Positions 504 through 59,068 of a stretch of 64,000 bases of DNA are shown one piece after another. The stretch covers positions 558,001 to 622,000 of the forward strand of contig JAEBUN010000028.1 in NCBI GenBank assembly GCA_023014365.1, given 5' to 3'. The notes below the pieces were generated by a model. That model was given only the letters and a program-made list of their open reading frames with translations. It did not search any database and was not told where the DNA came from. The position numbers and the translations under genes were made by a program. Within the stretch, counting starts at the first letter, position 1. Every line of letters starts with the position of its first letter. The stretch is from Lepiota brunneoincarnata. Taxonomy: Eukaryota; Basidiomycota; Agaricomycetes; Agaricales; Agaricaceae.

Positions 504-540
<37 letters not shown>

Positions 541-879: not shown

Positions 880-3800
880 CTAGCCGATACCCCCCGGGGG
901 GGGCCCGGCCCTCTCAGCGAACGCGAACGTGGTCGGGGACGCCTCGAGGAAAGCAATGAGAGCCTCGACCGTAGCCGGGACCCCCGCCATGGAGTGCCTA
1001 GGGCAACTCCGGAACACGTGCTCACGGGTTTCCTCCCGAAACCCGCAGCGACAGGAATAATCTTCCTGCGGGAAAAAAACGCCTCCGATAGCCCCCTATC
1101 GGCGCGTGATTAAGAATAGCACGCGTCATCCGGGCCATTACTGACACCGAGTGAGCGTGCGGGATCCAGGCACCACCGTGGAGATACGTGGGCCGCAGGG
1201 GACGGTCATCGTCCCTGGCGAGCTGGAGGAAACCATGCCCGCAATGGTCAGGATCCTGGAACAGATCGATCCAGCGGTCCTGACACGACCGTACTTCCTC
1301 CTTGCGGAGGTAGTCAAGTGAGGCCCGGGGACGAGCCCCTACCCCAACGGGAGGCAACGACCTCGCGAAGTCGTGCACCTGAGTGTGGAAAGGCCACCTC
1401 GCGCGCGAAGGGACCTCCCAGAAGTGGACCAAGCGGGCCGGATCCCCGGCAAACCACTTGGCGAGAAGGCGGCAGACCGCCAAGGAATGACCCTGGGCAG
1501 AGTGCACCGACGGGTCCACCGCCCGCCTGGCCGAGGCCATCGAGTCGGTGAACAAGACAAGACCAGCGGCGCCCTCGACAGAAACTGCCTTGGACACCGC
1601 CAGCCGGATGGCGAAAAGCTCGGCCTCGGGAGCCGTAACCTTCCCCCCCGGAAGCCGGACCGCATGGATGCAGCCCAGCCCCTGGAACACTTGGGCGGCC
1701 GAAACCGCCTGGTGGGCCCGGCGGGGCGGCAGACTCGCGTCCGTCGCTGCTACCAGAGCCCCCGGATCAGCCTGCGCCCGGGCCAGGACCCGGTCGAGAG
1801 CTGCGACATGGGCCGTGAGGGCGTCCTCCGCCCCCCGGTCGTAAGAGTGGAAGCGGACCCGGTCGGGGTACACATCCAGGAGACGGCGCCCCGGCCAGGC
1901 CTCCGGTGCCACCGCGTCGAAGGGCCCAGCAAGGGCAGCAAGACGCTGGTTAGCGTCGACAACAGGCCCCTTCACCTTGATCAGCTCGCGGGGAGGGAGC
2001 CTGGCTATGGACCGGACATGAGACCGGAGATCACCGCTGTAGCCCCAGCCAAGGAGGGCACGAACGGGGTGGCCCGGAGCAAGCGTGGCGTACCGCAACT
2101 CGGCACGGTCGCGAAGCTTCCGGAGATGAAGATGAATGGGGATCAGGCCCGCAATGGCCCCAACCCCCCCATCGGGTGACGTCCTAAAGGCGCCGGTGAT
2201 CCAGAGTGCAGCCCGACGCTGCATCCGGCGGAGGTGGTCCAAAGCGCCCTTACACCTGGCGCCCCGGTAATACCACAGACGAAAGCCGTATGTGGCTATC
2301 GGAACCACGCACGACCGATACAGAAGGCGCTTCTGGTCTGGCAGAAGCCCCCGGACGGAATTACCAAGCATCCCCATGGCCTTGACCGTGGAAATAGCCT
2401 TAGTAGAGTAGAAGCGAACATGCTCCTTAAACGTAAGGGCACGATCAAAATAGAAGCCCAAGTACCTCCAATAGGTCTTGGGCCGAAGAGGAGTAGCGCC
2501 AGTGAACGGGGGAAACCCCAAGTCCACCGGGGGATTCTCACCGGAACGATCCCGTGAGAAATGGAAGAGCTCGGACTTATCGTGCTCCACGACCAGCGCG
2601 AACCGAGTGAAGGTGTCATGGACAACCTCGTAAGATCTGCGGAGCAGGACGCAATTAGCGTCCAAGTCCCAGGCCTGCGCCACGATGGTGCCATCGTCGA
2701 CGTAAGACAGGAGCGAGAGGCCCGGCTGAGGGAGCCGCCGCTCGATGATGTACATGGCTGGGGCCAAGTAGAGGCCGGACAGGACGGGTGAGAGGGCAGA
2801 CCCCTGGCCCACCCCCACCTCCGCCCGGAACGGTTCAGACAGGAAGGAGTTCCAGGCATAGCTGGTAAACCTCCCCGTGAGATAAGAAGCAAAGAACCGG
2901 CCCACACAAGGGGAGAACCCCTGTCGAGCCAGAACCGCGAGAAGCATCCCATGGTTCAGGGATGGGAAGAACTGTGCGATGTCGAAGGCGAGAACACTCG
3001 TCTTCAACCCGCGGGCCCACCCGGCACGGACAAGGTGCACAAGGTAGGCACCAGCATCTTCGGTGGACCGCTGGATCACACCGCCGAACTGGTTCGGATG
3101 GAACACGCCAAACTTGACAGCCTCAAACTGCAAGCGGCGCGAGATCATTTTCTCGATAAGCTTACCGAGAGTGTTGAGAAGGACGATCGGTCTGAACGCC
3201 TTCGGAGTAGCATAGGAGGGCTTGCCAGGCTTCGGTATGATAACCGACACACTCTCCTTGAAGTGACGAGGCCAATGCCCGCACTCCATGCAGGCATCAG
3301 CGATCCGACAGACCAAACGGGTGACCGTTGGGCCCGCCAGAACGGACTTGAGGTGCGTCCACGTGACGTGGTCCGGACCGGGCGAAGACAGAGAGGAGCA
3401 CGCGCGCAGAGCCTCGTGCATCTCCAAGTCGGAGAAGACCGGCCACTCCCGCGGTGGGAGCGGATCGATCTGATCAAGAACCCTGACATCGACCGGACGG
3501 TCGTTGGCGGCGTTGTACGACCCGTGGAGCCCTTCCCAGAGCTCCTCGAGAGTATTGCAGGGGCGATCGCGGTAACGGATCGCCTCGCAGGGGGGGTAAC
3601 TTGCGCGCCCTGACCCAGTCCATCAGGTCCCAGGGGCGCTTGTTGGAAGAAGCAATCTCCTCGATACGCTCATCGAAGAATCTGCGCTTGGCGGCCTTCC
3701 AGGTCCGCTTAAACGTGCGAGCGTCCTCCCGGTCCCGAGACCGAGAGTACACCGCGTAAGCGCGCGAGCACTCGTCATCCCACCACGGCTTAGACCGCGA

Positions 3801-4766
3801 GACGACGCAGATCTCCTTGGAGTGGGCAAGCCACGCCTCGGAGAAGACCGCAGAGATAGCGCGGGCCACCTTGTCGATCCTGTCGGATGAGCCCAGGTCT
3901 GGGTAGTCCAGACCCACAAGCCCCGTCGAGACCTCAGCTAGGAACTCGGCCTCCTCGTCCGAGTCCCGCTTCAGCGAGCGCCTGGACACAGCCTCCTCGA
4001 AGGCTTCCAGGGGGACAGTGATCCGAAGGGGACAATGGTCAGATTGACCCCGGAGATCGGGACACCGCGTGGGAAGCGGCAGATGGCCCGCAGTCGCCCT
4101 CGCAAACACGAGGTCGATCACAGTAGAAGCAAGCCCCTCCTCAAAGGGGAAATGCGTGGGGCCCGGGTTCTCAGGAAGCGAGAGGTCCAGGCCCAACGAG
4201 TCCGCCGTTTCCAGCAGGGAGGCGGCAGCAGCAGGATTGTGGGGAGCCCACGGGTCCCACTGCGGCGAACGGCAGTTAAAGTCCCCCGACATGAGGGCGC
4301 ACTGCGGGAGAGAGTCAGCTGCATCCACAAGATAGCGAATGCCCGACTGCCGGTCGTCTGAGTAGACGTTGAGAAAGTACACGGCCTCCCCATGCAAAAA
4401 CATGGAGATGGCCATGACGTCACGGTGGTCGACGACGTCACGTCGAAGCGAGGGGCGGAGCCGCATCATCCGGTTATGTACATACGCCATAACCCGAGGA
4501 GGCTGATCCGGGGAAGAAGGAGGGCGGAACAAGCACAGCCACTCCGGATGCTTAGGCGCTCCAACAACCTCATCCCCGTCAGGGTCAGAGGAGGACGGAA
4601 CGCGGCGGATGGAGCGCCAAGGCGGCTCCTGTAGTAAGAACATATCAACTTCATCTTTGAATTGTTCCAGAAGAGAGTCCACAAGAATGTAACTACGGAA
4701 TACATTCTGAGACCAGACACGACACGCTCTCCTCAATCTCCTAGGTTCCTGACGGTCCCTATTCAT
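880..4766 (-). pseudogene. LN1 ORF2 polyprotein with two homopolymer frameshifts
   Basis: Copy of the 1,294-residue ORF2 (endonuclease, reverse transcriptase, RNase H). The start overlaps the ORF1 stop as ATGA at 4,763-4,766. Two single-base length differences break the frame relative to the intact copy at 19,120. Near 3,590 a run has seven G instead of six, ending the first reading frame after about 410 correct residues. Near 1,073 a run has seven A instead of six, so the terminal zinc-binding motif and last 70 or so residues are lost. Between them all reverse transcriptase and RNase H blocks are present, including YVDD. Both lesions sit in homopolymers, so sequencing or assembly error is as likely as real mutation. 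If they are errors, this copy is also coding-competent. Confidence 0.85.
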
Positions 4767-6955
4767 TGGGGTAAGCGAGGTTGACGTGGCGGGGAACGAA
4801 CCCTTACCGGAGAATCATACCGGCGCTCAATCCACTCCCGATCGAAGCGGTGAGCCCAGAATGGGCAGGCCGAAGCCGAAGCGGCGTGAGCGCCTCCGCA
4901 ATTCACGCAAACGGGAGCGTGAGGGCAGGGGCGGTCAGCGGGGGTGGGGGGAATGGGCGGCCTGTGGTTGGGCTGCCCCTTGCAACATGACGCAAACGCC
5001 CGATGGTTAGTCGGGGAATGCGGGCCGCCGCAATGAGAGCAGCGGATAGCCTCGCGTCGGCAGGCTAGAGAGGGGTGCCCCCACTTCCAGCAGCGCTGGC
5101 AGAGGGGGACGCCGGGATTGGCCTTGGCAGGGATAATCCTGCACGGGGTGCCGTCGATGGTGATGACGCGTCGAGAGACCGTCTTCGCGTTAGAACCCTG
5201 TTGAGAGTCCCAGATCTCAAAGAACACGGTCGCCGTGTCGGCGGCGCGCGAGTTCTTGACGATGCGTGGCCTGGTGGCCAACACAAAATACTCAGACCAC
5301 ACAGAGCGCTGCATGGCCTCGACAACCCGGTCGGGCGTGAGCCAGGGCTGCCCGCCCCGGAACATAGGTGCGTCGAGAAGCTTGAGATAGCTCTTCGAGC
5401 GGGGGAGGTTCGCGTCGACGACGGCGTTAGGCCAGTTGCCGCGGACCGCGTTCCTGATAGTGCCAATGTCCAGTTCACTGGGCACGGCGGTGGTGTAGCA
5501 GGCTACATGTGAATCCATCTGCTGGACCCGCTCGATACGAACGAGCGAGCCCGCGGACGCCAGAGCGGCTGCCGCCACCCGATGAACCTCCGCGCAGACG
5601 ACGGGGCCCAGGTTAACCGGGAGACCGCCCCCTGCGAGGGTGAGCATGACCTGCTTGCGCGAAGGTCCGGACGTGGTCATCCTAGGCTTGAGGGCCTTGG
5701 GTGGCTGCTGGGCGGCTGCTGCCTGCCGATGGAACGAGACCACCTTGTGAGAAGGCAGCCCCGGGAGAGCACGCGCCAGGTCGACGAGACCCGACGGGGA
5801 GGAGACGGCCGCGGCCGCATAAGAGCGGGGCGGGGAATGAGGCTTGGTAGCCAAGTTGACGCGCGGAGGGGGGGGACCAGGAGGCGGCCTCGCAGCCAGC
5901 CGAGCCCTGTCCGCCGCCGACAGCGGAGGAACATTGGCGGCTCGCGCCGCCCTGATGCGAGATGGCCGCTGCCCCGCACCGGGGTTGCGAGCCACTGGGA
6001 CAGGATTGCCCAGCCCTGTGCGGGCCAGGTTCCTGAAGAATTGCTGAGTAGGCGCAGGACGCGCATACCCAGCAGGAAAACGCCCCAAATCCTCCGCCGG
6101 AGCGGGAGGCAGGGGGAGGTTACCCTCCCAAGGGGTGCGGCGCGAGCCACCCACCTGAGGAGCGCCATCCACCTCCATAGGAGCCACAGAGGCCCTAGGA
6201 GAGGGGGCATGCATACTGCCCGCGACCCCAACAGGGGCAGCAGGTGCAGCAGAGTCCGGCCGTTTGCCCTTCCCTTGCGCAGGGGTTGGGGTGCTCGGCC
6301 TGGACGGACCATACACCTCAGAGGCCCACTCATGGAGCCTCAGGGTGCGCTTGCCCTCCTCGAAGGGGATATCGTCCCAGTCATGCTCTTCCACCTCGCG
6401 AAAGAGCCTGGCCAGGGAACGGGCGACCTCCGCGCTGCCGCCCTGAGAAAGGTTGCCGCGCTTGGCTCTCTCCAGCCACAGCGCGACGACGTCGAGAGCG
6501 TCCGCCACGATCCCAGCCTCACCCTCTGCATCCGCGGGACTGCGGGAAAGGGCGAGAAAGGTGGGGACGAACTCGGGATCCTCCTCCTCCACAAAAACGG
6601 GGCCGGGGGACGGCTCGGCTCCAGGATCTACAGCCATCCTGGAGGAACCGGAGACCGATTCGAGGTCGAGCTCCTGCCTCAGAGGGGCGGAGGGCTCGGG
6701 CGTGCGGGTGCGCTTGGGACGGGGGGTCACCGGGGCGTCATCCGGGTAAACAGCGGACTCGCGAGGCCTCTTGGGGGCCTCGGCAGCCGGAGTGGGGGCA
6801 GCAGCCTGCGATGCAGAGCTGTAGCCGGGTCGAGAGGAGCCGGAGGGGGCATCCTGAGTGCGGACGATAGCCATAGCGAGGGGGTCCGGCGACGAAGGAT
6901 CCGCCGGCGGAGGCGCCCCCGCTCCCTGAGAAGAGCGAGTAGACCTAAGAGGCAT
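4763..6955 (-). CDS. LN1 ORF1, gag-like RNA-binding protein with CCHC knuckles (copy A)
   Basis: 730 codons, uninterrupted, nearly identical to the ORF1 at 16,931-19,123; differences seen include MPLRS for MPPRS at the start and MFRGG for MFQGG. The N-terminal half is rich in proline, serine and charged residues. The conserved core lies at about residues 430-610. Three CCHC-type knuckles follow, beginning near residues 619 (CQRCWKWGHPSLAC), 639 (CSHCGGPH) and 683 (CVNCGGAHAASASAC). Proteins of this kind coat the LINE RNA to form the transposition particle. The start follows an about 116-nt leader. The stop overlaps the ORF2 start by four bases, which suggests translation of ORF2 by termination and reinitiation. 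Confidence 0.88.
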   Translation of the reverse strand: MPLRSTRSSQGAGAPPPADPSSPDPLAMAIVRTQDAPSGSSRPGYSSASQAAAPTPAAEAPKRPRESAVYPDDAPVTPRPKRTRTPEPSAPLRQELDLESVSGSSRMAVDPGAEPSPGPVFVEEEDPEFVPTFLALSRSPADAEGEAGIVADALDVVALWLERAKRGNLSQGGSAEVARSLARLFREVEEHDWDDIPFEEGKRTLRLHEWASEVYGPSRPSTPTPAQGKGKRPDSAAPAAPVGVAGSMHAPSPRASVAPMEVDGAPQVGGSRRTPWEGNLPLPPAPAEDLGRFPAGYARPAPTQQFFRNLARTGLGNPVPVARNPGAGQRPSRIRAARAANVPPLSAADRARLAARPPPGPPPPRVNLATKPHSPPRSYAAAAVSSPSGLVDLARALPGLPSHKVVSFHRQAAAAQQPPKALKPRMTTSGPSRKQVMLTLAGGGLPVNLGPVVCAEVHRVAAAALASAGSLVRIERVQQMDSHVACYTTAVPSELDIGTIRNAVRGNWPNAVVDANLPRSKSYLKLLDAPMFRGGQPWLTPDRVVEAMQRSVWSEYFVLATRPRIVKNSRAADTATVFFEIWDSQQGSNAKTVSRRVITIDGTPCRIIPAKANPGVPLCQRCWKWGHPSLACRREAIRCSHCGGPHSPTNHRAFASCCKGQPNHRPPIPPTPADRPCPHAPVCVNCGGAHAASASACPFWAHRFDREWIERRYDSPVRVRSPPRQPRLPQ

Positions 6956-7076
6956 GCGCGTAGGACTTTAAGATCGAGGATCGGGCTAGCAGAGCTCGTT
7001 GCAGAGTAGAGTGAGTAGGGGTAGGCAGTGGCTGTGCAGCGAGATGGTGGCGGTTGAAGTCCAAGAAGGGATGCTG

Positions 7077-9089
7077 TTTGCTTCCTATCTCACGGGGAGG
7101 TTTACCAGCTACGCCTGGAACTCCTTCCTGTCCGAACCGTTCCAGGCGGAGGTGGGGGTGGGCCAGGGGTCTGCCCTCTCACCCGTCCTGTCCAGTCTCT
7201 ACCTGGCCCCAGCCATGTATATTATCGAGCGGCGGCTCCCTCAACTGGGCCTTTCGCTCTTGTCTTACGTCGACGATGGTACCATCGTGGCGCAAGCCTG
7301 GGACCTGGACGCTAACTGCGTCCTGCTCCGCAGGTCCTACGAGGTTGTCCATGACACCTTCACCCGGTTCGCGCTAGTCGTGGAGCACGACAAGTCCGAG
7401 CTCTTCCATTTCTCATGGGATCGTTCCGGTGAGAATCCCCCGGTGGACTTGGGGTTTCCCCCGTTCACCGGCGCTACTCCCTTACGGCCCAAGACCTATT
7501 GGAGGTACTTGGGTTTCTATTTCGATCGTGCCCTTACGTTTAAGGAGCATGTTTGCTTCTATTCTACTAAGGCTATCTCCACGGTCAAGGCCATGGGGAT
7601 GCTTGGTAATTCCGTCCGAGGGCTTCTGCCAGACCAGAAGCGCCTCCTATATCGGTCGTGTGTGGTTCCTATAGCCACATACGGCTTTCGCTTGTGGTAT
7701 TACCGGGGCGCCAGGTGCAAGGGCGCTTTGGACCACCTTCGCCGGTTGCAGCGTCGGGCTGCGCTCTGGATCACCGGCGCCTTTAGGACGTCACCCGATG
7801 GGGGGGTTGGGGCCATCGCGGGCCTGATCCCCATTCATCTTCATCTCCGGAAGCTTCGTGACCACGCCGAGTTGCGGTATGCCACGCTTGCTCCGGGCCA
7901 CCCCGTTCGTGCCCTCCTTGGCTGGGGCTACAGCGGTGATCTCCGGTCCCACGTCCGGTCTATAGCCAGGCTCCCTCCCCGCGAGCTGATCAAGGTGAAG
8001 GGGCCTGTTGTCGACGCTAACCAGCGTCTTGCTGCCCTTGCTGGGCCCTTCAACGCGGTGGCGCCGGAGGCCTGGCCGGGGCGTCATCTCCTGGATGTGT
8101 ACCCCGAGCGGGTCCGCTTCCACTCCTACGACCGGGGGGCGGAGGACGCCCTCTCGGCCCATGTCGCGGCTCTCGACCAGGTATTGGCCCGGGCGCAGGC
8201 TGATCCGGGGGTTCTGGTGGCAGCGACGGACGCGAGTCTGCCGCCCCGCCGGGTCCACCAGGCGGTCTCGGCCGCCCAGGTTTTCCGGGGGCTGGACTGC
8301 ATCCATGCGGTCCGGCTTCCGGGGGGGAAGGTCACGGCTCCTGAGGCCGAGCTTTTCGCCATCCGGCTGGCGGTGTCCAAGGCAGTTTCTGTCGAGGGGG
8401 CCGCTAGTCTCGTCTTGTTCACCGACTCGATGGCCTCGGCCAGGCGGGCGGTGGACCCGTCGGTACACTCCGCCCAGGGTCACTCCTTGGTGGTCTGTCG
8501 CCTTCTTGCCGAGTGGTTCACCGGGGGTCTGGCCCGCTCAGTCCATTTCTGGGAGGTCCCCTCGCGTGCGAGGTGGCCTTTCCACGCTCAGGTGCACGAC
8601 TTTGCCCGGTCGTTGCCTCCCGTTGGGGTAGGGACTCGTCCCCAGGCCTCGCTTGACTACCTCTGCAAGGAGGAAGTACGGTCGTGTCAGGACCGCTGGA
8701 TCGATTTGTTCCAGGATCCTGACCATTGCGGGCACGGTTTCCTCCAGCTCGCCAGGGACGATGGCCGTCCCCTGCGGCCCACGTATCTCCACGGTGGTGC
8801 CTGGATCCCGCACGCTCAATCGGTGTCAGTAATGGCCCGGATGACGCGTGCTATTCTTAATCACGCGCCGATAGGGGGCTATCGGAGGCGCTTCTTCCCA
8901 CAGGAGGATTATTCCTGTTGCTGCGGGTTTCGGGAGGAAACTCGTGGGCACGTGTTCCGGAGCTGCCCTAGGCACTCCATGGCGGGGGTCCCGGCTACGG
9001 TCGAGGCCCTCATTGCTTTCCTTGAGGCATCCCCGACCGCGTTCGCGTTCGCCGAGAGGGCCGGGCCCCCCCCGGGGGGTATCGGCTAG
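7077..9089 (+). pseudogene. LN1 ORF2, right part (RT, RNase H, C-terminal zinc motif)
   Basis: Open to the normal TAG stop, with no internal stop. Visible are GVGQGSALSP, the catalytic LSYVDDGTIV, WRYLGFYFDRALTF, the RNase H blocks LVAATDAS, PEAELFAIRLAV, LFTDSMASARRAV and HAQVHDFARS, and the terminal CCCGFREETRGHVFRSC motif. Together with 1-503 it would have been a full ORF2 domain set before copy A split it. The apparent open frame upstream of 7,077 reads through the tail-to-head junction with copy A and is not real coding sequence. Confidence 0.88.
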
Positions 9090-11256: not shown

Positions 11257-11847
11257 GCCTAGCCTAGTGGTTTCGATCACTAAAGATGGGGAGAGGTGGC
11301 TGCGCACAGCTGCCGGAAAGGTTGGGGATTCAATTCCCTCTCATCCTCCATACCTGTGAAGTGGAGAGAGGTCGCGCAGTTGTCATCGGATACTACCGTG
11401 TGCTCGGTTCTTCGGGTGGGTAAACTATTTCCGAGGAAATTCGATAGTCTCCTTGATCTCAGTTCTCGATTTGGTGACTGGCAATCGCCAATCTGGGGTA
11501 AATCTGGGGGAGAGATCATTGGAGCTCAAAGTGGCAAATCTGGATTGATCTCAATTGGACTAGATTGGCTGTGCCCGATAAGGGAGCGAAAGCACAGGGC
11601 GTGGTAAGCAGGGGAATTCTAACAAAAACAGATCGAACGTCCCGATAAGGGGCCAGGTAACCCCCCACATGGGAAAGCTTGGTCCGGGTGCTGCCGGCTT
11701 AAGCCAAGTAAGTACCGGTCGTTAGTCCATGGTAGTAGGTATCCAGTCGGGTGGCAAAGGGTGGGGCACTGGGGCTTTGGGGTTACCCACAGCTTCTCCC
11801 ATAGGGGCTGCCGATTGGGGAGGTCCGCCACCCAGACCTTGGAGCTC
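11257..11847 (+). mobile_element. SN1 SINE copy 1, 5' part
   Basis: Starts in the tRNA-like head (CTAGCCTAGTGGTTTCG) and lacks the terminal GGGGCCCCT seen in other copies. It continues through the SN1 body to GACCTTGGAGCTC, which is duplicated at 13,959-13,971 by the inserted chimera. The second half is at 13,959-14,455. The flanking LN2 sequence resumes about 700 bp further into LN2 at 14,456, so SN1 insertion may have deleted target DNA. Confidence 0.85.
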
Positions 11848-12290
11848 TTTTTTTTTTTTTTTTTGAAATCAACAATTTATAACGCGGTGCTCGAACACAG
11901 TCCGCATGCACTAGCTACGTACAAAGCAACTAATACATGGTATAACTACCAATGAAGGTAGGGAAGGGAGTCCTGCTGACTCGAAAGGCTACACTCCACA
12001 GAGAAGTGCGCATGGGCGAAGAGTCCGCTGCCCCAACAGAAACCAGGGCGCGGCAGACGAGGGGTGGATAGGGCCAACAGGTCCCCCCCCCAAAGGGGGT
12101 TAGGAGTCGATTCTCTGTAAATCCCTACACCCCGCAGACTCCCGCTCTAAGAACTTCGGGTCTCCACCCCTAAGGGCATTAGGAGTCAATTCTCCATAAA
12201 TCGCTACACCTCACCCAAGGGCGGAGGGCGAATAACCGTCGGCTTCTCGAGATCGAAGTCGCGAGGGGGGAATAACCCGAAGGCCCTCCC

Positions 12291-12728
12291 CTGTTATCCC
12301 ACCCCTTGGGGCTGGGATAGGAACGCAAATGCGGAGGGATTGCATTCCAGAAAGCCCAGAAGGGTGTCGAGGTCGCGGGGTAAGCCGCCACGCCGCGTAT
12401 ACTTTGGACAAGAAGTGAGTATGTGAGTACGGGTTTCAAGCCGCAACCCACAAGGACAGGAGTGGTCCTCCTGGGGATGGAATCTAGCGCGGTACTCCCC
12501 AATAGGGGCATAACCGAGTATAGTGCGGGCGGCCCTCGCTGTGCCAGCAATGGACATCCGAGGACCGATTTCTCGGAGCCACGCACCTCCGGAGAGGTAC
12601 GAGGGTTGGATTGGCTTCCCGAGGGAGTCCAGTAAGGGAAGGAAGTTCCTTCTCCTGTACAAGGGCGAGCAAAACATATTCACCCACTCGTCTATGCACC
12701 CCCTCGTGACCTCAGCACGGAGAGAGCC
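12291..12728 (-). pseudogene. LN2 ORF2 C-terminal fragment (within chimera 1)
   Basis: Uninterrupted C-terminal segment of LN2 ORF2, about 145 residues: AEVTRGCIDEWVNMF, FLPLLDSLGKPIQPSYLSGG, then the zinc-binding motif CPCGLRLETRTHILTSC and the C-terminus near 12,291. There is no start codon of its own. It is a passive 5'-truncated tail of the LINE, now fused to module CM. Confidence 0.85.
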
Positions 12729-13958
12729 CGTCCAAGGAGCCCCTTGCGGGCAAACTCTGCGTGATCCCAACATGGCCCGCTTGGCGTAAGATGAGTGCTA
12801 CGGCGCCCGTTACTCCCATGCCAGACTAAGCTTTACTTGCCATAGACACAGGCAGGGGCCTCCCCTATAGGTGGTGCGCCTGGGGGCATGGGTTGGTACA
12901 CTAACAGCCTCCCTAATTGGTGCGGTACTAAAGCCAACGGGCCGGACTTACATGAGGCGGCGCAAAATCGCAGAACACCCCAAACCTGTTGCCCTCCCAA
13001 CTAGGTAATCCCCGGGGTAGCGGGTCGGTGCAGAAGGCCTTCCTAAAGGGTGTACAAGGCGGGCTAAACTCCGCCACTCAACTCACAGGCTCACGCTAGA
13101 ACCACTGACGTGGTAACAACTCAAACCGATAAACCCAGATCTTACCCGGGATCGATTGACAGTAGATCTTGATCTCTCGAGCCAGTTCGCCATTCTCTGA
13201 ACGAACCGCTACGGCCCAGTGGCTACCCAGGGTGCGACCCCCGGACCACCTTCCCATTACCCAGCAGCTGGTTCGTGATCGAGATCCGGTCGCCCAGATC
13301 TACAATAAGCACGGATCCCCGTATAACTGTCCGGGCTTACTGTCTCGCAGGGGCTGCTACCGGGATGGAAGTCGCAGTGTGAGAGCTGCCCCAGAGTTTG
13401 GGTGATCCCTACTAACGTCCTGCACCCGGCTGAGCTTTACTCGCTTGGAATGCAGGAGGGGGATGGCCTGTCCTCTCGGTCAGCTTGTTTTCACAGCTAT
13501 GCCCCCTCTTACCGTCCCCTATCCTCTCGGTCCCTTGTGGGCGTGCCCTCGTTTTCAAGCGGGAGACTCCCTACTCACGAGGGGGTATTTGGGGGAAGCG
13601 CACTCGCTACAGGTTTCGTGAGAGCATGGCGAGGAGCACGGTTGTCCCACTGCGAACCCACCCAGGATGTACCCAGGGGGACTCCTGACCCATTTCGGCC
13701 AGCCAGGGATCCACTGACCCCAGCAGAGACCGCCCAGAATCGCCAGCTCACCAGGCAGCCAGCATACCCAGCCATTAAGCACCTTTACCAAGGGCGCACC
13801 CAACTCCCCAACAACCCCAGACAGCCCCAGGACGCTCCAGAAGGGTGAAGAGAGGTGGAATAGTGTAGACAACCCACTAAAAACGGGATGGCTGCCTGTA
13901 GATTAGGAGTAGAAAATAATATAAGAGGGGGATGATGGTGGTAAGAGGGAAAGGAGCG
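12729..13958 (-). repeat. CM module of chimera 1
   Basis: About 1,230 bp, present again at 57,750-58,984 with the same 5' end and the same 3' end. Only the last about 480 bp are present at 45,920-46,399. An A-box/B-box-like pair lies in its second half, in the segment homologous to 45,947-45,994. In module sense a 105-codon frame without ATG runs from 13,872 to 13,555 and is also open, at identical length, in the second copy. No known protein is recognised. Confidence 0.75.
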
Positions 13959-14455
13959 GACCTTGGAGCTCTGGGTGAGTCCGTATCTGGGCATGCCCTG
14001 GGGTTAGATCCCCCATGGGTGTTCCATCCGAAGTGGGCGGCGCAGGCTTAGGGTACTGAAACAACTCCACGCCACTGGTCCACAGACCTCTGGGAGTGCA
14101 ACGTGGTTGGCTGTGGGTGAGGCAGAGACCTGGAACAGGTGGGGATCCACGCCGGTTGACATCAGCGAACCACCTGCCCGGGAACGGGAAGCCCAGTAAG
14201 CGGGGCTCTATACTAACTCCCTGGCGAAGCGTGAGCCGTAGTGGGCCGGGACAGTCTCCCGCGACCCGGCTCGAGTGCACTAAATCCTCTGTTGGTTCTC
14301 CTGACTGACTAAGCCAGGTTAGAGTCTAAGTTGATTCCGGGGTCCGGTGCATCCAGTGCTTGCCTCGCAAGAGCACATAGCAATAGGGTCCTCCCTCACG
14401 GGAGGGCCCTATACCTTGTAAATTGTTGATTTCAAAAAAAAAAACAAAAAAAAAA
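13959..14455 (+). mobile_element. SN1 SINE copy 1, 3' part
   Basis: Continues SN1 from the duplicated GACCTTGGAGCTC to the 3' end: terminal hairpin (ATAGGGTCCTCCC / GGGAGGGCCCTAT), TAAATTGTTGATTTC and an interrupted A-rich tail at about 14,434-14,457. Confidence 0.88.
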
Positions 14456-16788: not shown

Positions 16789-16814
16789 GGGGTCGGGATA
16801 GGAATGCAAACGCA
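16789..16814 (-). repeat. LN2 sliver and target site of LN1 copy B
   Basis: Antisense LN2 C-terminal coding sequence. GGATAGGAATGCAAACGCA (16,796-16,814) is repeated at 23,374-23,392, giving a perfect 19-bp target-site duplication around LN1 copy B. Confidence 0.88.
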
Positions 16815-16930
16815 TCCCTTCTTGGACTTCAACCGCCACCATCTCGCTGCACAGCCACCGCCTACCCCTACTCACTCTACTCTGCAACGAGCTCTGCTAG
16901 CCCGATCCTCGATCTTAAAGTCCTACGCGT

Positions 16931-19123
16931 ATGCCTCCTAGGTCTACTCGCTCTTCTCAGGGAGCGGGGGCGCCTCCGCCGGCGGATCCTTCGTCGCCGG
17001 ACCCCCTCGCTATGGCTATCGTCCGCACTCAGGATGCCCCCTCCGGCTCCTCTCGACCCGGCTACAGCTCTGCATCGCAGGCTGCTGCCCCCACTCCGGC
17101 TGCCGAGGCCCCCAAGAGGCCTCGCGAGTCCGCTGTTTACCCGGATGACGCCCCGGTGACCCCCCGTCCCAAGCGCACCCGCACGCCCGAGCCCTCCGCC
17201 CCTCTGAGGCAGGAGCTCGACCTCGAATCGGTCTCCGGTTCCTCCAGGATGGCTGTAGATCCTGGAGCCGAGCCGTCCCCCGGCCCCGTTTTTGTGGAGG
17301 AGGAGGATCCCGAGTTCGTCCCCACCTTTCTCGCCCTTTCCCGCAGTCCCGCGGATGCAGAGGGTGAGGCTGGGATCGTGGCGGACGCTCTCGACGTCGT
17401 CGCGCTGTGGCTGGAGAGAGCCAAGCGCGGCAACCTTTCTCAGGGCGGCAGCGCGGAGGTCGCCCGTTCCCTGGCCAGGCTCTTTCGCGAGGTGGAAGAG
17501 CATGACTGGGACGATATCCCCTTCGAGGAGGGCAAGCGCACCCTGAGGCTCCATGAGTGGGCCTCTGAGGTGTATGGTCCGTCCAGGCCGAGCACCCCAA
17601 CCCCTGCGCAAGGGAAGGGCAAACGGCCGGACTCTGCTGCACCTGCTGCCCCTGTTGGGGTCGCGGGCAGTATGCATGCCCCCTCTCCTAGGGCCTCTGT
17701 GGCTCCTATGGAGGTGGATGGCGCTCCTCAGGTGGGTGGCTCGCGCCGCACCCCTTGGGAGGGTAACCTCCCCCTGCCTCCCGCTCCGGCGGAGGATTTG
17801 GGGCGTTTTCCTGCTGGGTATGCGCGTCCTGCGCCTACTCAGCAATTCTTCAGGAACCTGGCCCGCACAGGGCTGGGCAATCCTGTCCCAGTGGCTCGCA
17901 ACCCCGGTGCGGGGCAGCGGCCATCTCGCATCAGGGCGGCGCGAGCCGCCAATGTTCCTCCGCTGTCGGCGGCGGACAGGGCTCGGCTGGCTGCGAGGCC
18001 GCCTCCTGGTCCCCCCCCTCCGCGCGTCAACTTGGCTACCAAGCCTCATTCCCCGCCCCGCTCTTATGCGGCCGCGGCCGTCTCCTCCCCGTCGGGTCTC
18101 GTCGACCTGGCGCGTGCTCTCCCGGGGCTGCCTTCTCACAAGGTGGTCTCGTTCCATCGGCAGGCAGCAGCCGCCCAGCAGCCACCCAAGGCCCTCAAGC
18201 CTAGGATGACCACGTCCGGACCTTCGCGCAAGCAGGTCATGCTCACCCTCGCAGGGGGCGGTCTCCCGGTTAACCTGGGCCCCGTCGTCTGCGCGGAGGT
18301 TCATCGGGTGGCGGCAGCCGCTCTGGCGTCCGCGGGCTCGCTCGTTCGTATCGAGCGGGTCCAGCAGATGGATTCACATGTAGCCTGCTACACCACCGCC
18401 GTGCCCAGTGAACTGGACATTGGCACTATCAGGAACGCGGTCCGCGGCAACTGGCCTAACGCCGTCGTCGACGCGAACCTCCCCCGCTCGAAGAGCTATC
18501 TCAAGCTTCTCGACGCACCTATGTTCCAGGGCGGGCAGCCCTGGCTCACGCCCGACCGGGTTGTCGAGGCCATGCAGCGCTCTGTGTGGTCTGAGTATTT
18601 TGTGTTGGCCACCAGGCCACGCATCGTCAAGAACTCGCGCGCCGCCGACACGGCGACCGTGTTCTTTGAGATCTGGGACTCTCAACAGGGTTCTAACGCG
18701 AAGACGGTCTCTCGACGCGTCATCACCATCGACGGCACCCCGTGCAGGATTATCCCTGCCAAGGCCAATCCCGGCGTCCCCCTCTGCCAGCGCTGCTGGA
18801 AGTGGGGGCACCCCTCTCTAGCCTGCCGACGCGAGGCTATCCGCTGCTCTCATTGCGGCGGCCCGCATTCCCCGACTAACCATCGGGCGTTTGCGTCATG
18901 TTGCAAGGGGCAGCCCAACCACAGGCCGCCCATTCCCCCCACCCCCGCTGACCGCCCCTGCCCTCACGCTCCCGTTTGCGTGAATTGCGGAGGCGCTCAC
19001 GCCGCTTCGGCTTCGGCCTGCCCATTCTGGGCTCACCGCTTCGATCGGGAGTGGATTGAGCGCCGGTATGATTCTCCGGTAAGGGTTCGTTCCCCGCCAC
19101 GTCAACCTCGCTTACCCCAATGA
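16931..19123 (+). CDS. LN1 ORF1, gag-like protein with CCHC knuckles
   Basis: 730 residues. Residues 1-400 are proline-, alanine- and serine-rich and probably disordered. About 430-610 form a conserved folded core (MLTLAGGGLPVNLGPVVCAE; LDAPMFQGGQPWLTPDRVV). CCHC-type knuckles follow at 619-632 (CQRCWKWGHPSLAC), about 639 (CSHCGGPH...C) and 683-697 (CVNCGGAHAASASAC). The C-terminus is basic. By family analogy it binds and packages LINE RNA. The start is the first in-frame ATG after the 5' end. The TGA stop overlaps the ORF2 ATG (ATGA, 19,120-19,123). Confidence 0.92.
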   Translation: MPPRSTRSSQGAGAPPPADPSSPDPLAMAIVRTQDAPSGSSRPGYSSASQAAAPTPAAEAPKRPRESAVYPDDAPVTPRPKRTRTPEPSAPLRQELDLESVSGSSRMAVDPGAEPSPGPVFVEEEDPEFVPTFLALSRSPADAEGEAGIVADALDVVALWLERAKRGNLSQGGSAEVARSLARLFREVEEHDWDDIPFEEGKRTLRLHEWASEVYGPSRPSTPTPAQGKGKRPDSAAPAAPVGVAGSMHAPSPRASVAPMEVDGAPQVGGSRRTPWEGNLPLPPAPAEDLGRFPAGYARPAPTQQFFRNLARTGLGNPVPVARNPGAGQRPSRIRAARAANVPPLSAADRARLAARPPPGPPPPRVNLATKPHSPPRSYAAAAVSSPSGLVDLARALPGLPSHKVVSFHRQAAAAQQPPKALKPRMTTSGPSRKQVMLTLAGGGLPVNLGPVVCAEVHRVAAAALASAGSLVRIERVQQMDSHVACYTTAVPSELDIGTIRNAVRGNWPNAVVDANLPRSKSYLKLLDAPMFQGGQPWLTPDRVVEAMQRSVWSEYFVLATRPRIVKNSRAADTATVFFEIWDSQQGSNAKTVSRRVITIDGTPCRIIPAKANPGVPLCQRCWKWGHPSLACRREAIRCSHCGGPHSPTNHRAFASCCKGQPNHRPPIPPTPADRPCPHAPVCVNCGGAHAASASACPFWAHRFDREWIERRYDSPVRVRSPPRQPRLPQ

Positions 19124-22100
19124 ATAGGGACCGTCAGGAACCTAGGAGATTGAGGAGAGCGTGTCGTGTCTGGTCTCAGAATGTATTCCGTAGTTACATT
19201 CTTGTGGACTCTCTTCTGGAACAATTCAAAGATGAAGTTGATATGTTCTTACTACAGGAGCCGCCTTGGCGCTCCATCCGCCGCGTTCCGTCCTCCTCTG
19301 ACCCTGACGGGGATGAGGTTGTTGGAGCGCCTAAGCATCCGGAGTGGCTGTGCTTGTTCCGCCCTCCTTCTTCCCCGGATCAGCCTCCTCGGGTTATGGC
19401 GTATGTACATAACCGGATGATGCGGCTCCGCCCCTCGCTTCGACGTGACGTCGTCGACCACCGTGACGTCATGGCCATCTCCATGTTTTTGCATGGGGAG
19501 GCCGTGTACTTTCTCAACGTCTACTCAGACGACCGGCAGTCGGGCATTCGCTATCTTGTGGATGCAGCTGACTCTCTCCCGCAGTGCGCCCTCATGTCGG
19601 GGGACTTTAACTGCCGTTCGCCGCAGTGGGACCCGTGGGCTCCCCACAATCCTGCTGCTGCCGCCTCCCTGCTGGAAACGGCGGACTCGTTGGGCCTGGA
19701 CCTCTCGCTTCCTGAGAACCCGGGCCCCACGCATTTCCCCTTTGAGGAGGGGCTTGCTTCTACTGTGATCGACCTCGTGTTTGCGAGGGCGACTGCGGGC
19801 CATCTGCCGCTTCCCACGCGGTGTCCCGATCTCCGGGGTCAATCTGACCATTGTCCCCTTCGGATCACTGTCCCCCTGGAAGCCTTCGAGGAGGCTGTGT
19901 CCAGGCGCTCGCTGAAGCGGGACTCGGACGAGGAGGCCGAGTTCCTAGCTGAGGTCTCGACGGGGCTTGTGGGTCTGGACTACCCAGACCTGGGCTCATC
20001 CGACAGGATCGACAAGGTGGCCCGCGCTATCTCTGCGGTCTTCTCCGAGGCGTGGCTTGCCCACTCCAAGGAGATCTGCGTCGTCTCGCGGTCTAAGCCG
20101 TGGTGGGATGACGAGTGCTCGCGCGCTTACGCGGTGTACTCTCGGTCTCGGGACCGGGAGGACGCTCGCACGTTTAAGCGGACCTGGAAGGCCGCCAAGC
20201 GCAGATTCTTCGATGAGCGTATCGAGGAGATTGCTTCTTCCAACAAGCGCCCCTGGGACCTGATGGACTGGGTCAGGGCGCGCAAGTTACCCCCCTGCGA
20301 GGCGATCCGTTACCGCGATCGCCCCTGCAATACTCTCGAGGAGCTCTGGGAAGGGCTCCACGGGTCGTACAACGCCGCCAACGACCGTCCGGTCGATGTC
20401 AGGGTTCTTGATCAGATCGATCCGCTCCCACCGCGGGAGTGGCCGGTCTTCTCCGACTTGGAGATGCACGAGGCTCTGCGCGCGTGCTCCTCTCTGTCTT
20501 CGCCCGGTCCGGACCACGTCACGTGGACGCACCTCAAGTCCGTTCTGGCGGGCCCGACGGTCACCCGTTTGGTCTGTCGGATCGCTGATGCCTGCATGGA
20601 GTGCGGGCATTGGCCTCGTCACTTCAAGGAGAGTGTGTCGGTTATCATACCGAAGCCTGGCAAGCCCTCCTATGCTACTCCGAAGGCGTTCAGACCGATC
20701 GTCCTTCTCAACACTCTCGGTAAGCTTATCGAGAAAATGATCTCGCGCCGCTTGCAGTTTGAGGCTGTCAAGTTTGGCGTGTTCCATCCGAACCAGTTCG
20801 GCGGTGTGATCCAGCGGTCCACCGAAGATGCTGGTGCCTACCTTGTGCACCTTGTCCGTGCCGGGTGGGCCCGCGGGTTGAAGACGAGTGTTCTCGCCTT
20901 CGACATCGCACAGTTCTTCCCATCCCTGAACCATGGGATGCTTCTCGCGGTTCTGGCTCGACAGGGGTTCTCCCCTTGTGTGGGCCGGTTCTTTGCTTCT
21001 TATCTCACGGGGAGGTTTACCAGCTATGCCTGGAACTCCTTCCTGTCTGAACCGTTCCGGGCGGAGGTGGGGGTGGGCCAGGGGTCTGCCCTCTCACCCG
21101 TCCTGTCCGGCCTCTACTTGGCCCCAGCCATGTACATCATCGAGCGGCGGCTCCCTCAGCCGGGCCTCTCGCTCCTGTCTTACGTCGACGATGGCACCAT
21201 CGTGGCGCAGGCCTGGGACTTGGACGCTAATTGCGTCCTGCTCCGCAGATCTTACGAGGTTGTCCATGACACCTTCACTCGGTTCGCGCTGGTCGTGGAG
21301 CACGATAAGTCCGAGCTCTTCCATTTCTCACGGGATCGTTCCGGTGAGAATCCCCCGGTGGACTTGGGGTTTCCCCCGTTCACTGGCGCTACTCCTCTTC
21401 GGCCCAAGACCTATTGGAGGTACTTGGGCTTCTATTTTGATCGTGCCCTTACGTTTAAGGAGCATGTTCGCTTCTACTCTACTAAGGCTATTTCCACGGT
21501 CAAGGCCATGGGGATGCTTGGTAATTCCGTCCGGGGGCTTCTGCCAGACCAGAAGCGCCTTCTGTATCGGTCGTGCGTGGTTCCGATAGCCACATACGGC
21601 TTTCGTCTGTGGTATTACCGGGGCGCCAGGTGTAAGGGCGCTTTGGACCACCTCCGCCGGATGCAGCGTCGGGCTGCACTCTGGATCACCGGCGCCTTTA
21701 GGACGTCACCCGATGGGGGGGTTGGGGCCATTGCGGGCCTGATCCCCATTCATCTTCATCTCCGGAAGCTTCGCGACCGTGCCGAGTTGCGGTACGCCAC
21801 GCTTGCTCCGGGCCACCCCGTTCGTGCCCTCCTTGGCTGGGGCTACAGCGGTGATCTCCGGTCTCATGTCCGGTCCATAGCCAGGCTCCCTCCCCGCGAG
21901 CTGATCAAGGTGAAGGGGCCTGTTGTCGACGCTAACCAGCGTCTTGCTGCCCTTGCTGGGCCCTTCGACGCGGTGGCACCGGAGGCCTGGCCGGGGCGCC
22001 GTCTCCTGGATGTGTACCCCGACCGGGTCCGCTTCCACTCTTACGACCGGGGGGCGGAGGACGCCCTCACGGCCCATGTCGCAGCTCTCGACCGGGTCCT

Positions 22101-23004
22101 GGCCCGGGCGCAGGCTGATCCGGGGGCTCTGGTAGCAGCGACGGACGCGAGTCTGCCGCCCCGCCGGGCCCACCAGGCGGTTTCGGCCGCCCAAGTGTTC
22201 CAGGGGCTGGGCTGCATCCATGCGGTCCGGCTTCCGGGGGGGAAGGTTACGGCTCCCGAGGCCGAGCTTTTCGCCATCCGGCTGGCGGTGTCCAAGGCAG
22301 TTTCTGTCGAGGGCGCCGCTGGTCTTGTCTTGTTCACCGACTCGATGGCCTCGGCCAGGCGGGCGGTGGACCCGTCGGTGCACTCTGCCCAGGGTCATTC
22401 CTTGGCGGTCTGCCGCCTTCTCACCAAGTGGTTTGCCGGGGATCCGGCCCGCTTGGTCCACTTCTGGGAGGTCCCTTCGCGCGCGAGGTGGCCTTTCCAC
22501 ACTCAGGTGCACGACTTCGCGAGGTCATTGCCTCCCGTTGGGGTAGGGGCTCGTCCCCGGGCCTCGCTTGACTACCTCCGCAAGGAGGAAGTACGGTCGT
22601 GTCAGGACCGCTGGATCGATCTGTTCCAGGATCCTGACCATTGCGGGCATGGTTTCCTCCAGCTCGCCAGGGACGATGACCGTCCCCTGCGGCCCACGTA
22701 TCTCCACGGTGGTGCCTGGATCCCGCACGCTCACTCGGTGTCAGTAATGGCCCGGATGACGCGTGCTATTCTTAATCACGCGCCGATAGGGGGCTATCGG
22801 AGGCGTTTTTTCCCGCAGGAAGATTATTCCTGTCGCTGCGGGTTTCGGGAGGAAACCCGTGAGCACGTGTTCCGGAGTTGCCCTAGGCACTCCATGGCGG
22901 GGGTCCCGGCTACGGTCGAGGCTCTCATTGCTTTCCTCGAGGTGTCCCCGACCGCGTTCGCGTTCGCTGAGAGGGCCGGGCCCCCCCCGGGGGGTATCGG
23001 CTAG
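19120..23004 (+). CDS. LN1 ORF2: endonuclease, reverse transcriptase, RNase H
   Basis: 1,294 residues, intact. The endonuclease/exonuclease/phosphatase domain is at about 13-250, with N21 (WSQN), E47 (LLQEP), D162 (GDFNC) and S242-D243-H244. The reverse transcriptase lies at about 500-780, with D595 (AFDIAQFF), GVGQGSALSP and the active-site Y688-V-D-D691. RNase H lies at about 1000-1140, with D1009, E1049, D1074 and D1132. A terminal CRCGFREETREHVFRSC zinc-binding motif lies at 1238-1254. This order is that of Tad/I/jockey-type LINEs. The enzyme nicks DNA and copies LINE RNA at the nick. Its start overlaps the ORF1 stop, favouring reinitiation over a separate mRNA. Confidence 0.95.
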   Translation: MNRDRQEPRRLRRACRVWSQNVFRSYILVDSLLEQFKDEVDMFLLQEPPWRSIRRVPSSSDPDGDEVVGAPKHPEWLCLFRPPSSPDQPPRVMAYVHNRMMRLRPSLRRDVVDHRDVMAISMFLHGEAVYFLNVYSDDRQSGIRYLVDAADSLPQCALMSGDFNCRSPQWDPWAPHNPAAAASLLETADSLGLDLSLPENPGPTHFPFEEGLASTVIDLVFARATAGHLPLPTRCPDLRGQSDHCPLRITVPLEAFEEAVSRRSLKRDSDEEAEFLAEVSTGLVGLDYPDLGSSDRIDKVARAISAVFSEAWLAHSKEICVVSRSKPWWDDECSRAYAVYSRSRDREDARTFKRTWKAAKRRFFDERIEEIASSNKRPWDLMDWVRARKLPPCEAIRYRDRPCNTLEELWEGLHGSYNAANDRPVDVRVLDQIDPLPPREWPVFSDLEMHEALRACSSLSSPGPDHVTWTHLKSVLAGPTVTRLVCRIADACMECGHWPRHFKESVSVIIPKPGKPSYATPKAFRPIVLLNTLGKLIEKMISRRLQFEAVKFGVFHPNQFGGVIQRSTEDAGAYLVHLVRAGWARGLKTSVLAFDIAQFFPSLNHGMLLAVLARQGFSPCVGRFFASYLTGRFTSYAWNSFLSEPFRAEVGVGQGSALSPVLSGLYLAPAMYIIERRLPQPGLSLLSYVDDGTIVAQAWDLDANCVLLRRSYEVVHDTFTRFALVVEHDKSELFHFSRDRSGENPPVDLGFPPFTGATPLRPKTYWRYLGFYFDRALTFKEHVRFYSTKAISTVKAMGMLGNSVRGLLPDQKRLLYRSCVVPIATYGFRLWYYRGARCKGALDHLRRMQRRAALWITGAFRTSPDGGVGAIAGLIPIHLHLRKLRDRAELRYATLAPGHPVRALLGWGYSGDLRSHVRSIARLPPRELIKVKGPVVDANQRLAALAGPFDAVAPEAWPGRRLLDVYPDRVRFHSYDRGAEDALTAHVAALDRVLARAQADPGALVAATDASLPPRRAHQAVSAAQVFQGLGCIHAVRLPGGKVTAPEAELFAIRLAVSKAVSVEGAAGLVLFTDSMASARRAVDPSVHSAQGHSLAVCRLLTKWFAGDPARLVHFWEVPSRARWPFHTQVHDFARSLPPVGVGARPRASLDYLRKEEVRSCQDRWIDLFQDPDHCGHGFLQLARDDDRPLRPTYLHGGAWIPHAHSVSVMARMTRAILNHAPIGGYRRRFFPQEDYSCRCGFREETREHVFRSCPRHSMAGVPATVEALIAFLEVSPTAFAFAERAGPPPGGIG

Positions 23005-23373
23005 TAGCTCTGCCTGGCGCCCGGTTGGGTCCGGGCTGGGGCGTTGGTTATTCCCCCGCTGCCTTCGGGTGGCGTGTAGGGATTTGCGTGGGAATTGACC
23101 CCTAGCCCCCGATAAGGGGGGGGACCTCGCTCCGGTTTGGTTCCCGTGCCGCGCGCTGGGCGGCAGCCGTCTTCCCGCCTCCGTTCATTCGGGGCGGCTT
23201 CATCCTGGGCATGGGGAAACGCATGCCCGCATCCGCGGTCACGCGTTGTATGTACAGATACCCCGTAGTGTACGGCTCGGTCGTTTGTACTGTAGTACGT
23301 TGCTGCGCACGGCCTCCCTACGCGGCCCATGTAATAAATTGGAGATTTAAAAAAAAAAAAAAAAAAAAAAAAA
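23005..23373 (+). promoter_or_regulatory. LN1 3' untranslated region and poly-A tail
   Basis: Contains a C-run/G-run hairpin (CCTAGCCCCCGATAAGGGGG, near 23,101) about 230 nt before the tail. A related C-run/G-run hairpin occurs in LN2 3' ends. The terminal AATAAATTGGAGATTT is constant in LN1 copies and is the likely recognition end for the LN1 reverse transcriptase. This region is the only LN1 sequence kept in the shortest insertions, such as 24,736-25,057. Confidence 0.7.
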
Positions 23374-45918: not shown

Positions 45919-46543
45919 TTAGTGGTTTGTTCAGAGAATGGTGAACTGGCTCAAGAGGTTAAGATCTACTGTTGATCAATCCTGGGTAAGATCCAGGTTT
46001 ATCAGTTTGAGTTGTTACTATGTCAGTTGTTCTAGTGTGAGTCTGTGGGGTGAGTGGTGGAGTTTAGCCCACCTTGTACACCCTTTAGGAAGGCATTGTG
46101 CTGACCTGCTACCCTGGGGATTACCTAGTTGGGAGGGCAATGGGTTTAGGGTGTTCCACATTTTTGTGCTACCCTATGTAAGTCCAGCCCATTGGCTTTA
46201 GTGCTGCACCAATTAGGGAGGCTGTTAGTGTGCCATCCCATGCCCCTGGGTGCACCACCTATAGGGGAGGCCCTCCCCTGTGTCTATAGCAAGTAAAGCT
46301 CAGTCTGGCATGGGAGTAATGGGTGCTGTAGCACTCATCTCATGCTAAGTGGGCCATGTTAGGATTACATGGAGTTTACCTGCAAGGAACTCCTTGGATG
46401 GGTTCAAGCCAGTGGGGCTTTCTCCCTTACCTTAGTTGGTAGTTATACCATGTATTAGTTGCTTTGTTGTAGCTAGTGCACATGGACTGCGTTCAAGCAC
46501 CATGTTATAAATTGTTGATTTCAAAAAAAAAAAACAAAAAAAA
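45919..46543 (+). mobile_element. CM-LN2 chimeric retroelement 3 (short)
   Basis: The last about 480 bp of module CM, from GTGGTTTGTTCAGAGAATGG, ending at CTCCTTGGAT (46,399). It joins only the last about 125 bp of LN2 (TTCAAGCCAGTGGGG to TAAATTGTTGATTTC) and an interrupted A-tail to 46,543. The CM end is the same as in chimeras 1 and 2, but the LN2 part is far shorter. CG-poor. The right flank is LN1 copy M; the left target copy was not found. Confidence 0.8.
45947..45994 (+). promoter_or_regulatory. A-box/B-box-like pair in module CM
   Basis: TGGCTCAAGAGGTTAAG (45,947-45,963) resembles a tRNA A-box region and GGTAAGATCC (45,985-45,994) a degraded B-box, 38 bp apart. The same pair is at about 58,529-58,577 and, reversed, near 13,135-13,185. 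It is weaker than the SN1 head. It could mark a second tRNA-derived unit inside CM. Confidence 0.35.
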
Positions 46544-57749: not shown

Positions 57750-58984
57750 CATCATGCTTCTTTCCCTCTTACCACCATCATCCCCCTCTTATATTATTTT
57801 CTACTTCTAATCTACAGGTAGCCATCCTGTTTTTAGTGGGTTGTCTACACTATTCCACCTCTCTTCACCCTTCTGGAGTGTCCTGGGGCTGTCTGGGGTT
57901 GTTAGGGAGTTGGGTGTGCCCTTGGCAAAGGTGCTTAATGGCTGGGTATGCTGGCCACCTGATGAGCTGGCAATTCTGGGTGGTCACTGCTGGGGTCAGT
58001 GGATCCCTGGCTGGTCAAAATGGGTTAGGAGTCCCCCTGGGCACATCCTGGGTGGGTTTGCAGTGGGACAACTGCACTCCTTGCCAAGCTCTTGTGAAAC
58101 CTGTAGTGAGTGCACTTCCCCCAAATATCCCCTTGTGAGTAGGGAGTCTCCTGCTTGAAAACGAGGGCATGCCCACAAGGGACCAAGAGGATAGGGGACA
58201 GTAAGAGGGGGCATCAAGGTGAGAACAAGCCAACTGAGAGGACAGGCCACCCCCCTCCTGCATTCCAAGCAAGTAAAGCTTAGCCAGGTGCAGGACATTA
58301 GTAGGGATCACCCAAACTCTGGGGCAGCTCTCACACTGTGACTTCCATCCTGGTAGCGGCCCCTGCAAGACAGTAAGCCCAGACAGTTATATGGGGATCC
58401 ATGCTTATCACAGATCTGGGCAACTGGATCTTGATCATGAACTGGCTGCTGGGTAATGGGAAGGTGGTCCAGGGGTTGCACCCTGGGTAGCCACTGGGCT
58501 GTAGTGGTTCATTCGGAGAATGGCAAACTGGCTCAAGAGATTAAGATCTGCTGTTGATTGATCCTGGGTAAGATCTGGGTTTATCGGTTTGAGTTGTTAC
58601 CATGTCAGTAGTTCTAGCATGAGCCAGTGAGTTGAGTGGTGGAGTTTAGCCCACCTTGTACACCCTTTAGGAAGGCCTTCTGTGCTGACCTGCTACCCCA
58701 GGGATTACCTAGTTTGGAGGGCAACAGGTTTGGGGTGTTCTGCGTTTTTGCACTGCCTCATGTAAGTCTAGCCCATTGGCTTTAGTGCCACACCAATTAG
58801 GGAGGCTGTTAGTGTGCTGACCCATGCCCCCAGGTGCACCACCTATAGGAGAGGCCCCTGCCTGTGTCTATGGTGAGTAAAGCTCAGTCTAGCATGGGAG
58901 TAATAGGCACTGTAGCACTCATCTTATGCCAAGTGGGCCATGTTGGGATCACATGGAGTTTGCCTGCAAGGGGCTCCTTGGACA
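57750..58984 (+). repeat. CM module of chimera 2
   Basis: About 1,235 bp, colinear with the CM of chimera 1 from its 5' start (CTTTCCCTCTTACCACC) to CTCCTTGGAC. A 105-codon frame (57,841-58,158) matches that in chimera 1 in length. It has no ATG. Old, CG-poor. Confidence 0.78.
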
Positions 58985-59068
58985 GGATGTCCATTGCTGG
59001 CACAGCATGGGCAGTCTGCACCATACTTGGTCATGCCCCTATTGGGGAGTACCACGCTAGATTCCATC

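Follow-up and report, generated by a model that had tools for sequence, protein, structure and literature searches.

A family of CM-LINE chimeric retroelements in Lepiota brunneoincarnata, very probably formed by template jumping onto a 1.23-kb non-LINE module

The window analysed here is a stretch of 64,000 nucleotides of the Lepiota brunneoincarnata genome, in a region that is a dense nest of LINE insertions. The chimeric insertion at 11848-13958 is confirmed as real. Read 5' to 3' on the minus strand, it consists of a target-site duplication (TSD), a module here named CM, the truncated 3' end of a LINE of the LN2 family, a poly(A) tail and the other copy of the duplication (Table 1). The initial annotation had described a 1.23-kb non-LINE module fused to a truncated LINE and inserted with it as one unit; this corresponds to a CM of 1,232 nt plus the last 862 nt of LN2, enclosed together by a single outer TSD. 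The duplication had been called perfect and 13 bp long. It is indeed perfect, but its exact length is 14 bp, 13 bp being a lower bound because the 14th base, the last T of the duplication, runs into the poly-T. The end of CM, formerly given as CTCCTTGGAC, was three bases short, the constant end being GGACGGG. The chimera lies within a SINE and in the orientation opposite to it, and an empty copy of this target site is found at 37693 of the same window. The target SINE, whose length is estimated from its copies at ~1.05 kb, has a 3' end similar to that of LN2. Judged by eye from its box motifs, it looks tRNA-derived; ARAGORN detected no tRNA.

Table 1. Coordinates of the chimeras, of the target and of LN1 in the window.
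Feature	Position	Strand	Remarks
TSD, 3' side of chimera	11835..11848	.	GACCTTGGAGCTCT; exact match to 13959-13972
TSD, 5' side of chimera	13959..13972	.	GACCTTGGAGCTCT
Poly(A) tail of the LINE part	11848..11864	-	poly-T on the plus strand
LN2 LINE 3' end, 5'-truncated	11865..12726	-	862 nt
Module CM	12727..13958	-	1,232 nt; 5' end CGCTCCTTTCCC and 3' end CTCCTTGGACGGG, both fixed
SINE target	11258..14451	+	~11258-11848 plus 13973-14451; start approximate, by eye
Second chimera, full CM	57756..58986	+	then LN2 58987-~59069, at the shared LN2 4605 site
Third chimera, CM from ~748 to the GGG end	45920..46402	+	LN2 46403-46522; poly(A) to 46543
LN1, LINE with open frames	16815..23373	+	ORF1 16919-19123; ORF2 19072-23004; 19-bp TSD

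Two further chimeras are present in the window. The second is very old, with 5 CpG left in its CM, and its LN2 part is broken by a later LINE insertion; in the third the LN2 tail measures ~120 nt. Moreover, the window contains an LN1 element whose ORF2 matches the Pfam endonuclease (EN) and reverse transcriptase (RT) domains and has its best named protein relatives in Candolleomyces (Agaricales), Cyclocybe and Psilocybe. This element carries no CM at its 5' end and is a likely source of the enzyme for the chimeras. Two LN1 copies of the window, at 511-7089 (minus) and 16797-23373 (plus), carry different TSDs and are 99.74% identical over 6,580 aligned bases, so LN1 has been active recently. 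An element at 49106-49625, whose final ~80 nt resemble the LN1 3' end and which is also found fused to CM elsewhere (L017, L018, L051), is possibly an LN1-dependent SINE. A decayed fragment similar to 18S rRNA is located at 62491-63096 on the minus strand and also at L099 (Rfam RF01960, 160.5 bits). It belongs to a dispersed repeat with 26 genome matches from 24 scored candidates, eleven of them full-length at 96-100% identity (window copy counted), and the repeat of the window is common to contig C2 over 3 kb at 96%.

A genome search with CM yielded at least 41 matches, the best 40 of 106 candidates being scored. Patterns for the two ends of CM, allowing up to 3 mismatches in 26, were located at 68 places (5' end) and 54 places (3' end), while the reversed patterns used as a control occurred at 0 places in the genome. 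The junctions read amount to 55, namely 53 of the 54 CM 3' ends plus L037 and L071; the 3' end at C9:166802 was left out, its CM copy (L029) having the flanks of L028, whose 3' end is L059. The third chimera of the window provides a 56th junction and agrees with the fixed CM end. The 55 junctions are not all independent, since L035 and L038 share flanks and the pairs L064/L065 and L066/L067 share sites. After the GGAC of CM, the next bases are GGG in 38 junctions, AGG in 14, GAG in one and TGT in two, and the full form GGA(C/T)-RGG is found at 51 of the 55 junctions, the other four being L037, L050, L066 and L067. The AGG ends are the expected product of CpG decay of GGACGGG.

A retroelement directly follows CM in 54 of the 55 junctions; in the other one (L063), 37 nt not assigned to any partner stand between CM and a later LINE insertion. 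The fusion had been described with LN2, and the range of partners turned out to be wider, taking in LN1, a SINE (in L023) and, in L017, L018 and L051, a third poly(A) element whose 3' end is LN1-like. Neither a CM source gene nor a solo CM was met among the 56 junctions read. In L066 and L067 the join lacks GGG and the LINE itself reads GGAC at that point; these two may have arisen by switching, or by recombination, at a longer word common to both sides. In L050 and L056 the same short sequence, TGCTCCTGCTTCAACA, precedes CM, and the CM start points differ.

Eighteen chimeras are covered to both ends, and 13 of them have a single outer TSD, as the initial annotation had anticipated: in 11 it is exact, with a length of 14-18 bp, and in two it has one mismatch in 14-15. 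The remaining five have no convincing TSD (L012, L013, L018 and L030, with shared words of 3-6 nt, and L020, with 8 nt), the 3-6 nt words of the first four being at chance level. When flanks were wrongly paired (306 pairings), shared words reached at most 9 nt if exact and 11 nt with one mismatch, which excludes chance for the TSD of the window chimera. No duplication was detected at the inner CM/LINE join of the same 18 chimeras, where the longest shared word is 6 nt. CM is of full length in 27 aligned copies. Nine further junctions were chosen for having no CM 5' end listed nearby; CM starts at 415-1165 in eight of them and is split in one. Among these, L043 retains no more than the final 79 nt of CM, bounded by an exact 14-bp TSD; it is a true 5' truncation of CM, the form predicted if reverse transcription starts at the 3' end of CM and the enzyme drops off. 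Other copies that start inside CM may have been interrupted by later insertions; L048 and L049, in which CM looks 5'-truncated and the poly(A) ends are covered, showed no TSD.

The statement that CM encodes nothing recognised is borne out by the searches: four CM ORFs gave no Pfam match and the longest sense ORF had no protein homologue at E up to 1, so that CM was rejected as a coding sequence. The antisense ORF has a counterpart in one metagenome protein of 116 aa, matched over 42% (E 2e-7); this would most likely reflect a relative of CM elsewhere at the DNA level. In Rfam no match reached the gathering score, which rules out a known RNA family at that threshold, and two chance-level hits appeared at E up to 5. 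Folding stability of CM shows no excess, either over the full length (z 0.63) or in windows (-1.9 to 1.9), and viral contigs searched with one exact CM 21-mer gave 0 matches. Telomerase RNA was also considered and discarded: assuming a TTAGGG repeat, TAACCC, CCCTAA, CTAACC and ACCCTA are all absent from the sense strand of the CM majority sequence. CM would be best described as the copy of a separate RNA unrelated to the LINEs, presumably a non-coding RNA of the host whose end is not polyadenylated.

As regards the age of the copies, the CpG counts in the 27 full CM copies range from 92 down to 5, and the changes are mostly C>T and G>A. Among 26 of these copies (one duplicate dropped), 50 non-CpG variants are shared and 153 are singletons, and a few of them track age. 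In chimeras with LN1 tails, the transversion divergence is 0-0.4% for CM and 0-2.5% for LN1, an uneven comparison in that CM is measured against its own consensus and LN1 against one copy of possibly several subfamilies. This picture suits descent of the CM copies from a single, slowly changing source gene rather than from copies of copies. The source gene was not found among the junctions read. A conserved 18S stretch, sought with up to 2 mismatches, is absent from the assembly, which therefore lacks repeated loci; as a conjecture, the CM source may be among these.

The LINE side of the junctions is highly variable. The initial annotation had named varied LN2 breakpoints after CM as support and an invariable breakpoint as evidence against it; of the 55 junctions, 48 could be placed cleanly on LN1 or LN2, and these define 36 distinct breakpoints, 17 in LN1 and 19 in LN2, so that the breakpoint is not constant. 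The seven junctions dropped are those with the third element (L017, L018, L051), with the SINE (L023) and in LN2 ORF1 (L021), and two with a poor or interrupted alignment (L053, L063). The LINE tails of the 48 mapped junctions extend from ~250 to 5,293 nt. Some sites recur: in LN1, 6205 in four copies and 5943 and 6239 in two each; in LN2, for which positions refer to a composite coordinate built on a single decayed copy (L040), 4605 in five copies (two with shared flanks) and 4054, 4176 and 4369 in two each.

The 36 sites show a marked base preference: C at -3 and G at -2 are each present in 29 of them, and G at -1 in 22. CGG is found at 17 of the 36 sites against a background of 2.4% (binomial p 1e-18, this test and the others below taking sites as independent) and CGA at five, giving CGG or CGA at 22; in the window chimera, the LINE template at the switch is CGA. 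An exact GG overlap with the end of CM occurs at 20 of the 36 sites, and nGG at 21 against 9.7% in the background (p 7e-13). The GGG is supplied by CM, since it mostly persists in the chimera at sites with CGA, CGC or other bases in the LINE; L066 and L067 are exceptions. In addition, C and G at -3/-2 are enriched even where the GG overlap is missing (7 of 15 sites, p 7e-5), so the overlap alone does not explain them. Nine ordinary LINE 5' truncations, gathered by eye and with some starts uncertain by a few bases, served as a control and had CGG in 0 of 9 and CG in 1 of 9 (Fisher p 0.009 and 0.006, respectively). A hairpin stall at the switch sites was not supported (p 0.10-0.44).

From these data, the CM-LINE family is very probably a group of bipartite chimeric retroelements produced through template jumping by the LINE machinery of the fungus. 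According to the proposed mechanism, target-primed reverse transcription would begin at the poly(A) end of an RNA of either LINE or SINE origin, and the enzyme would halt at a favoured position, which at 22 of the 36 sites lies immediately 3' of CGG or CGA. It would then jump to the 3' terminal GGG of the unrelated RNA of ~1,232 nt, CM, and copy it toward its 5' end, wholly or partly, after which the joined LINE-CM cDNA would be inserted as one unit. The CM transcript itself, in its transcription as well as in its ends, is a putative one, read from the genomic copies.

A different order of events, in which a LINE RNA is first cleaved and its 5' end ligated to the 3' end of the CM RNA, the product then being reverse transcribed normally, would likewise generate fixed CM ends, a single outer TSD and 5'-truncated CM. 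The CGR of the LINE side could in that case reflect a cleavage preference, with which the CG kept at 7 of the 15 sites lacking a GG overlap is in agreement, and both jumping and ligation routes are described for U6/LINE-1 in the available part of PMC13174262. However, RNA ligation does not predict the GG overlap at 20 of the 36 sites, and we regard it as unlikely. This two-base overlap accords with the behaviour of the R2 reverse transcriptase, which in vitro jumped best with a complementary overhang of 1-2 nt (PMC8857657, in the portion available), and it favours template jumping over ligation without settling the matter; the joining would thus take place during reverse transcription. The proposed CM mechanism resembles that of R2 in that the enzyme lands on an acceptor 3' end with one or two complementary bases (PMC8857657, same portion), whereas the retroelement is another one and the CM case is a record in a genome, not an assay.

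Far less probable is the reading of CM as the 5' untranslated region of a LINE, with the chimeras as internal deletions or splicing products. CM does sit 5' of LINE sequence in the sense direction, and in L021 it is joined to a near-complete LN2; yet the L021 site falls inside LN2 ORF1, and L022, inspected by eye, places it ~0.9 kb from the 5' end of LN2. CM as an LN1 or LN2 5' UTR was rejected on the ground that the 5' regions of both differ from it. The best BLAST matches of CM to LN1 and to the available LN2 pieces are 17-19 nt long (E 0.17), which also disposes of the alternative, raised with the initial annotation, of CM as an internal part of a longer LN2. Furthermore, the partners comprise two LINE families and two other elements, and the LINE side is mostly CGR, not the splice acceptor AG. 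Two adjacent but separate insertions, of a CM element and then of a LINE, might be imagined in such a dense LINE nest, as might an assembly artefact; with an outer TSD in 13 of 18 chimeras and none at their CM/LINE joins, and a CM that lacks poly(A) and keeps one and the same 3' end across many contigs, such an origin is the least credible of all.

A chimera family of this kind has a fungal counterpart in the MINE elements of Magnaporthe, to which the layout had been likened at the outset. The accessible part of PMC2104539 reports 31 MINE, in which the module WEIRD, of 1,113 nt, is fused to tails of the LINE MGL of 230-5,461 nt; it includes a WEIRD-MgSINE chimera and no solo WEIRD, and gives the switch motif as GCC*A/U with no microhomology found. 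On that description the plan is the same: a full-length, non-coding 5' module of ~1.1-1.2 kb followed by varied, 5'-truncated LINE 3' parts, a TSD of 10-20 bp, a SINE chimera, no solo module, a short switch motif in the LINE and sites shared among separate copies. The CM system appears to work as MINE does. In contrast with MINE, which lives in an ascomycete, the host is an agaricomycete; the partners are drawn from two LINE families and two further elements, and a 5'-truncated module is seen. Moreover, the CM sites have CGG/CGA and do not follow GCC*A/U, and they overlap the CM end by GG, as compared with the same part of PMC2104539. The CGG preference and the two-base overlap with the CM end at the LINE switch are new with respect to the MINE record. 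Judging from the basidiomycete host, the CM system would have arisen independently of WEIRD. U6/LINE-1 and related mammalian chimeras, as described in the available part of PMC13174262, are likewise formed of a cellular RNA at the 5' side and a LINE at the 3' side, in sense and with a TSD, and differ from CM, which is ~1.23 kb long and has no Rfam match at gathering score. Having a 5' module unrelated to the LINEs and seen at full length, a LINE 3' part cut at varied points and, in most copies examined to both ends, a single outer TSD, and with the RNA nature of CM presumed, the CM chimeras belong to the LINE-made bipartite kind of MINE and U6/L1. No fungal case besides MINE, and no earlier one in basidiomycetes, was found among the openly licensed PMC papers listed by the searches.

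The occurrence of a second such system, in a different phylum of fungi, would point to LINE fusion with one favoured RNA as a recurrent event in this kingdom. The CM system is an unusually rich record of switch sites: the 36 distinct sites, the constancy of the acceptor end and the graded ages of the copies make testable both the identity of the favoured RNA and what determines the point at which a LINE reverse transcriptase abandons the template. On a more tentative level, CM is possibly a non-coding RNA of the host, conserved and processed to a GGG end that carries no poly(A), with its gene at a locus lost from assemblies (e.g., in the rDNA unit); it would represent the basidiomycete counterpart of WEIRD, which LINEs would recruit repeatedly through a site code made of a CGR donor and a GG-pairing acceptor. 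If this were true, dozens of recruitment events of graded age would be recorded in the genome.

Lastly, two ordinary LN1 copies with different flanks (L077 and L088) are both truncated at LN1 position 5048, a possible truncation hot spot.
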